A stretch of DNA of 40,362 bases from Candidatus Acetothermia bacterium (GTDB lineage Bacteria > Bipolaricaulota > Bipolaricaulia > Bipolaricaulales > Bipolaricaulaceae): the NCBI GenBank assembly GCA_003566155.1, contig PXEP01000169.1, forward strand, positions 1-40,362, in the 5' to 3' direction. The notes beneath the pieces are model-generated. The model made no database searches, was not told where the DNA came from, and saw nothing but the letters and a program-made list of their open reading frames with translations. The position numbers and the translations under genes were made by a program. Positions 11,678 through 23,920 of this stretch are shown here, one piece after another; the first letter of the stretch is position 1, and each line of letters begins with the position of its first letter.

Positions 11678-11705
11678 ACTTTACAAAAGTGCCCTTTTGT
11701 AAAGT
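11678..11705. promoter_or_regulatory. dif: dif-like 28-bp Xer recombination site (11-6-11 palindrome)
   Basis: ACTTTACAAAA (11678-11688), spacer GTGCCC, then TTTTGTAAAGT (11695-11705). The arms are perfect inverted repeats of 11 bases around a six-base spacer, the geometry and length of bacterial dif. From memory of the Bacillus subtilis dif site, the right arm matches 9 of 11 bases and the left arm 7 of 11; the spacer does not match. The site is 99 bases upstream of a tyrosine recombinase gene. Unlike normal dif, the arms are identical, which fits one recombinase acting alone. It is AT-rich with no T tract, so it makes a poor terminator. A repressor operator is the main alternative. Confidence 0.55.
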
Positions 11706-11758
11706 TGGCTCCTGCGGAACATCCCTGCAGCACAGCATCACAGCGATCGACTGTTCTA

Positions 11759-11788
11759 TTGTTAAATTCGTGGTTACCATAGTAAACT
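11759..11788 (+). promoter_or_regulatory. Probable promoter of the recombinase-Bat operon
   Basis: TTGTTA (11759-11764) and TAAACT (11783-11788), each 4 of 6 to consensus, are separated by 18 bases. The -10 lies 16 bases upstream of the recombinase ATG, with GAGGGGG between them. The region is AT-rich, unlike its surroundings. The downstream genes overlap one another, so this may drive the operon up to 21643. Confidence 0.45.
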
Positions 11789-11804
11789 GCTACGAGGGGG
11801 AAAC

Positions 11805-12422
11805 ATGGCCTTGGAGCTGACCCAAGAGGATTTCATGACCATGGCCCAGGTGCGACAGCTGAAGACCATGGCCCGCCGCGCGGCCGACGAGGCCCGCAAG
11901 AGAGGTCGAACCGGACCGGTAAGGGACTGGATGATCCTACACATCGCCCTCGACGCCGGGCTCCGGGTGTCGGAGATCGTCTCCCTGCGGATGGGCGACA
12001 TCCTCCTCGATCCCAGCCACGCAGCGATCATCGTGCGTAACGGCAAGGGTGGTCGTCAGCGGGGCGTGGACATCGGCCAGCCGCTGCGTGAGCATCTGCG
12101 TGAGTACATTGAGTGGAAGGAGGCGATCGGAGAGAGCACCGCCCCTGATGCATACCTCGTCCCTTCTCCCCAAGGAGGTGAGCTCACGCGCCAGGCCGTG
12201 TACCTGATGTTCAAACGTATGGCTGCCCGGGCAGACCTCCCCGAACGATTCACCATACATTCGTGCCGTCACACCTACGCCTCCATGCTCTACAGATCGT
12301 CGCGCTACAACCTACGGCTTGTGCAGAAGCAGCTCGGACATGCGTCGATCCGCACAACACAGGTGTACGCCGATGTACTGTCCGAGGACGCTTGGGAGGC
12401 GGTGAATAGCCTGCCGCAATGA
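11805..12422 (+). CDS. Short Xer/FimB-like tyrosine recombinase
   Basis: This 205-residue protein is a catalytic domain only. All active-site residues are present: Arg54 (GLRVSEI), Lys81 (NGKGGRQR), His152 and Arg155 (HSCRHTYAS), His179 (LGHASIRTT) and the nucleophile Tyr188 (QVYADV). It lacks the N-terminal core-binding domain of XerC/XerD (about 90 residues), like the FimB/FimE phase-variation enzymes. The family cuts and rejoins DNA at paired inverted-arm sites. A dif-like palindrome lies just upstream. The start has GAGGGGG four to five bases before the ATG. The stop overlaps the start of a secreted membrane-anchored protein gene by four bases, so it is translationally coupled to the MoxR/Bat operon, an unusual partner for a recombinase. 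Confidence 0.88.
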   Translation: MALELTQEDFMTMAQVRQLKTMARRAADEARKRGRTGPVRDWMILHIALDAGLRVSEIVSLRMGDILLDPSHAAIIVRNGKGGRQRGVDIGQPLREHLREYIEWKEAIGESTAPDAYLVPSPQGGELTRQAVYLMFKRMAARADLPERFTIHSCRHTYASMLYRSSRYNLRLVQKQLGHASIRTTQVYADVLSEDAWEAVNSLPQ

Positions 12423-23887: not shown

Positions 23888-23920
23888 ACAAGGGCTGAGC
23901 CTGTGTCGCTCAGCCCTTGT
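23888..23920 (-). terminator. Terminator of the ferredoxin gene
   Basis: ACAAGGGCTGAGC and GCTCAGCCCTTGT form a perfect 13-bp stem with a seven-base loop, starting seven bases after the ferredoxin stop. On the minus strand it is followed by GTTAC rather than a T run, so it may act as a transcript-stabilising hairpin or a weak intrinsic terminator. Confidence 0.7.

Follow-up and report, generated by a model that had tools for sequence, protein, structure and literature searches.

A predicted one-recombinase Xer/dif module in Bipolaricaulota, with a catalytic-domain-only enzyme and no detected FtsK

Judging from sequence comparisons, Bipolaricaulota very probably resolve chromosome dimers with a module that consists of one Xer recombinase, reduced to its catalytic domain, and a dif site, and that operates without FtsK. 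The gene and site described here lie within a 40,362-nt stretch of Candidatus Acetothermia DNA (contig PXEP01000169.1; hereafter the window); an initial annotation had read the pair as either a one-enzyme minimal Xer/dif system or a FimB-like switch. The first reading was supported by the conserved pairing of gene and site, by the failure to find a second Xer or a better site in two complete genomes, and by the position of the site in the terminus region of these two. The broader joint proposal, i.e., that the phylum resolves dimers through a Xer enzyme without a core-binding domain, without FtsK and at a symmetric site, with self-control through half-sites at the promoter, and that phages enter the terminus via copies of the site, is in our estimation only a little better than an even proposition. 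No paper joining Bipolaricaulota with tyrosine recombinases was found in the literature searched.

Results

Geometry and sequence of the palindromic site

The predicted dif-like recombination site, ACTTTACAAAAGTGCCCTTTTGTAAAGT, occupies positions 11678-11705 (no strand assigned). As had been claimed for it, the 28-mer is a perfect inverted repeat with dif geometry, i.e., 11-nt arms (11678-11688 and 11695-11705) separated by a central 6 bp, GTGCCC (11689-11694), and the arms can even be lengthened to 12 nt, leaving a 4-nt spacer, without loss of complementarity. Perfect inverted repeats with 12-nt arms and a 3-8 nt spacer occurred twice in the window, compared with 0.017 expected per simulated window; the other one (23889-23919, 7-nt spacer, CAAGGGCTGAGCCTGTGTCGCTCAGCCCTTG) is G+C-rich. 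The right arm of the site, TTTTGTAAAGT, agreed at 10/11 positions with the published Geobacter sulfurreducens dif arm TTATGTAAAGT and at 8/11 with the published E. coli XerD arm TTATGTTAAAT (PMC2731167). A whole-genome search for further copies of the 28-mer, proposed in the initial annotation, returned a single copy in the host genome when up to 3 mismatches were allowed. The conserved element thereby has the properties by which a dif site is recognized: a length of about 28 bp, inverted arms, a 6-bp centre, one occurrence per chromosome and a non-coding location.

The recombinase P0001

The open reading frame for P0001, a catalytic-domain-only Xer-type tyrosine recombinase of 205 aa (11805-12422, + strand; PF00589, 1.4e-32), starts 99 nt downstream of the 28-mer, exactly as annotated; the site-to-start distance was 63-117 nt in most families. 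All six catalytic residues claimed earlier were present (R54, K81, H152, R155, H179, Y188) and were invariant across 27 orthologues, so that P0001 carries the R-K-H-R-H/W-Y set of a Xer-related tyrosine recombinase. The nearest solved structures by sequence were XerA and XerD, and the nearest folds found with Foldseek were XerA on top, with IntI4 and XerH also among them; the AlphaFold model of P0001 was of moderate quality (pLDDT 76), the C-terminal 40 residues being the weakest.

Xer enzymes grip DNA with a two-domain C-shaped clamp, and the usual Xer architecture, a core-binding plus a catalytic domain, was not found in P0001. Pfam detected PF00589 alone (residues 12-192). The NCBIfam XerA, XerD and XerC models each gave about 116 bits, under their curated equivalog cut-offs, and their alignments to P0001 began at model positions 98, 103 and 115, respectively, leaving the N-terminal third of the models uncovered; the missing core-binding domain noted earlier was thus seen with both kinds of model. 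P0001 appears from its sequence to be about two thirds of the usual enzyme size and to be without the DNA-clamping half. There is no space for an undetected core-binding domain, because the site itself lies only 99 nt before the start. To our knowledge every known dif recombinase has a core-binding domain, and the activity of P0001 without one is therefore a prediction. In a survey of tyrosine recombinases the simple ones were usually composed of core-binding and catalytic domains (PMC8138268).

We considered whether the core-binding domain could be supplied from elsewhere in the genome and rejected this: models PF02899 and PF13495 detected nothing in genomes G000, G005 and G015, which include the complete ones, and gave hits only in G042, away from the locus. 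In that genome, a core-binding open reading frame (132 aa) is followed by a catalytic one (213 aa) at G042:C2:55917-56722, so that a split or frameshift separates the two domains of this recombinase.

Conservation and co-occurrence of gene and site

The relatives named in these comparisons were Candidatus Bipolaricaulota/Acetothermia MAGs; the record labels "Thermotoga" (L039) and "Clostridia" (L069) were taken to be misassigned. Among 60 genomes compared, 36 contained a close orthologue of P0001 and 24 contained none. The site was present in 36/36 genomes with the orthologue, as the exact core ACAAAAGNNNNCTTTTGT in 30, as a variant core ACAAAAGGTATCTTATGT in five genomes of family f5, and with one mismatch in G007; the exact core was found in 0/24 genomes without the gene. 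The gene lay downstream of the site in 41/41 non-redundant loci. A palindrome not conserved in relatives carrying the gene would have spoken against the proposed pairing; instead, no orthologous locus lacked the site next to the gene. In a set of 100 genomes from the class, the exact core occurred in 54, in single copy in each except G012, and a reversed control pattern occurred in three. The single-copy orthologue with its adjoining site was kept across four families, the 3' end of an HD-domain gene lying upstream in the f1 loci. Some related families have neither gene nor site, and the system is therefore not universal in the class.

Tyrosine recombinases varied in number and size among the relatives. 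G053, G050 and G058 had 13-20 matches each, compared with one in most relatives, while no PF00589 protein was detected in G043 and G011 (estimated 90-96% complete). Full-length Xers were present in families f3 and f4, and weak open frames of 185-219 aa in genus g13. A partial PF00589 match within a 75-aa open frame in G000 (G000:C9:28412-28603, locus L003) is probably a decayed integrase.

Chromosomal position and FtsK

In the two single-contig complete genomes, G005 and G015, the orthologue was the sole PF00589 protein and, in the 90-93% of the sequence that was read, the site had no further match at 2 or fewer mismatches; neither a second Xer gene nor a better dif, named at the outset as findings that would count against a one-enzyme system, was found in them. 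Measured from dnaA, the site was at 47.1% of the circle in G005 and at 54.0% in G015. The GC-skew minimum of G015 coincided with dnaA, and 11 kb separated the site from the keto-skew maximum; in G005 the distance between site and skew maximum was 75-150 kb, and the best two-arm skew fit was 4-9% of the circle away. The comparison with GC skew suggested in the initial annotation accordingly places the site in the terminus region, with modest precision and in two genomes of one genus. Since the skew is weak and noisy and G005 and G015 share a genus, we take this placement as support, not as proof. KOPS-like motifs around the site had a weak strand bias at most.

Bacterial dimer resolution is usually timed by FtsK. 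The FtsK_SpoIIIE domain, searched for with the single Pfam model PF01580 (positive in 10/14 control genomes), gave no match above the cut-off in any of 15 genomes, the two complete ones among them, so that the FtsK translocase control typical of bacterial Xer/dif systems was not detected in these 15. Such control is not required of archaeal XerA, which acts without FtsK (PMC5357621, PMC8371274).

Half-sites at the promoter

A third half-site, CTATTGTTAAAT, in right-arm orientation (11756-11767, + strand), was located over the presumed promoter of the recombinase gene, in what was the top-scoring region of 25 family-f1 loci. It occupied -48 to -61 from the start in nearly all 25, and in each f1 locus no more than 0.5% of shuffles attained the top half-site score. 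L091 and L008 differed in that their downstream half-site copy outscored the upstream one. A weaker fourth half-site, CCATAGTAAACT (11777-11788, + strand), follows 21 nt after the third. Taken alone in this window the fourth was not significant (shuffle fraction 0.29); the 21-nt spacing was repeated wherever both were scored. The third half-site overlaps a -10-like TAAAGT/TAAAAT, with TTGACA/TTGACG at a distance of 17 nt in many loci, as judged by eye and weakly in the window. This arrangement suggests that the recombinase may repress its own gene.

Copies of the site on phage-like contigs

Three phage-like contigs had a copy of the site adjoining terminase genes. On a phage-like contig, 176 nt separated the second site copy of G012 from a terminase-like gene downstream of it, and the terminase of this contig had no relative among the viral contigs. 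When 2.9 million viral contigs were searched for CGCAACAAAAGNNNNCTTTTGT, only L247 and L248 were found, in each of which the site follows a terminase gene at a distance of up to about 420 nt; two Bipolaricaulota genomes contain relatives of the L247 terminase. L248 encodes a 222-aa Xer-like recombinase (L248:7496-8164), 35% identical to P0001, about 950 nt from its site copy. This contig also has a separate 340-aa integrase, and its terminase gene is apparently split into two overlapping open reading frames. A viral scan with TTNACAAAAGNNNNCTTTTGTNAA returned six AT-rich contigs (GC 0.25-0.38), which were judged to be chance matches, and the f5 site pattern gave zero matches among the viral contigs. 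Elements carrying dif mimics are known elsewhere (PMC9765430), and for this reason we regard the phage copies as independent evidence that the palindrome is a recombination site; phages may enter the chromosome via these copies.

Discussion

In the properties compared here, the module works like a Xer/dif system in most respects, and departs from one in the undetected core-binding domain and the undetected FtsK. In the mechanism we propose, four copies of the 205-aa P0001 would pair the two sites of sister chromosomes, with one protomer on each of the identical arms. Active protomer pairs would use Y188 to cut where the 6-bp centre meets the arms, and strands would be exchanged via a Holliday junction, converting dimers to monomers, with the asymmetric centre giving the reaction its direction. 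P0001 would hold the arms without the core-binding half of the clamp and, like archaeal XerA, would act without the FtsK motor; from the half-sites over the promoter it would also repress its own gene. For this module we infer that the enzyme binds and cleaves the site, resolves dimers and regulates its own gene, and that phages integrate at the site.

How the arms vary bears on whether the palindrome is kept as a DNA site or as RNA. It might serve only to regulate the recombinase gene or the HD-domain gene, as the operator of a transcription factor, an RNA hairpin or a terminator, and have no part in recombination; it is intergenic, it folds to a hairpin, and half-site copies lie over the promoter. 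The outer arms co-vary between families (TTNAC in f1, CGCAAC in f2/f7, TTTTTAAC in f5), remaining alike though their sequence differs, and the centre varies. However, one arm column in f1 was non-pairing in 12/25 loci whereas its neighbouring columns paired in 25/25, and in f5 an inner column was A/A in 5/5 loci, with flanking columns that paired throughout. These mismatch columns argue against conservation of an RNA stem; the pattern fits two putative protein half-sites with one free position. There is also no U-run after the palindrome, and an RNA hairpin or terminator was rejected on these two grounds. Neither a single copy, a terminus position nor phage copies beside terminase genes would be expected of an operator, and we consider a purely regulatory role unlikely. 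In the f2/f7 upstream regions (L030, L032, L051-L054, L094-L099) a second conserved element, roughly GACANNNGTC, directly follows the palindrome.

The pair might otherwise be an integrase with its att site, either a remnant of a mobile element or still in its service, with no housekeeping role; a hint in this direction is the recombinase 35% identical to P0001 on a phage-like contig that also carries the site. Against this, gene and adjoining site are single-copy and kept in four families, with the HD-gene 3' end upstream in f1; the orthologue of P0001 is the sole tyrosine recombinase in the two complete genomes; and the flanking site is not duplicated. We therefore hold a mobile-element origin to be very unlikely. 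A FimB/FimE-like inversion switch, in which a short recombinase turns over the DNA between two inverted sites close to the gene that encodes it, would suit the local site and the size of P0001, which falls in the class of the FimB/FimE-type models (198-200 positions). Such a switch needs an invertible segment with an inverted site on either side, whereas there is one site per genome and so no segment to invert. The FimB/FimE-type models gave 39-41 bits (curated cut-offs 221-222), about 75 bits behind the Xer models, and the site is near the terminus. This second reading of the initial annotation was rejected for want of a second site, and we regard it as extremely unlikely. A FimB-like switch, an RNA hairpin and a mobile-element remnant all fit worse than a one-recombinase Xer/dif system.

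A Xer module apparently without half of the clamp and without FtsK would reveal which components strand exchange cannot do without, would make it necessary to ask what gives the reaction its directionality without a motor, and would offer a well-defined minimal pair of enzyme and site for experiments. It would also inform chromosome segregation in a deep bacterial lineage and how the phages of this lineage may integrate.

Known single-recombinase systems share different parts of this arrangement. XerS/difSL of Streptococcus and Lactococcus likewise has a lone recombinase, with the site close to the terminus and adjoining the recombinase gene (PMC5357621, PMC2731167), but XerS is 356 aa, difSL (31 bp) has unequal arms around an 11-bp centre, and FtsK is used (PMC5357621). 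XerH/difH of Helicobacter and Campylobacter has a single recombinase, a site linked to it in most species and a variable 6-bp centre (PMC2731167); XerH is a structural match to P0001, but is 354-362 aa with a core-binding domain. XerL/dif of the Legionellales has a single recombinase and a site mimic on a mobile element (PMC9765430), whereas XerL is large (catalytic tyrosine Y387) and of proteobacterial lineage. The FimB/FimE invertases resemble P0001 in being about 200 aa with only the catalytic domain, but are a far weaker sequence match and invert DNA between two sites. The best match in both sequence and fold is archaeal XerA, also a single FtsK-independent recombinase (PMC5357621, PMC8371274), which differs in having a core-binding domain (P0001 matches from residue 115 of 292 in 4a8e) and a variable gene location.
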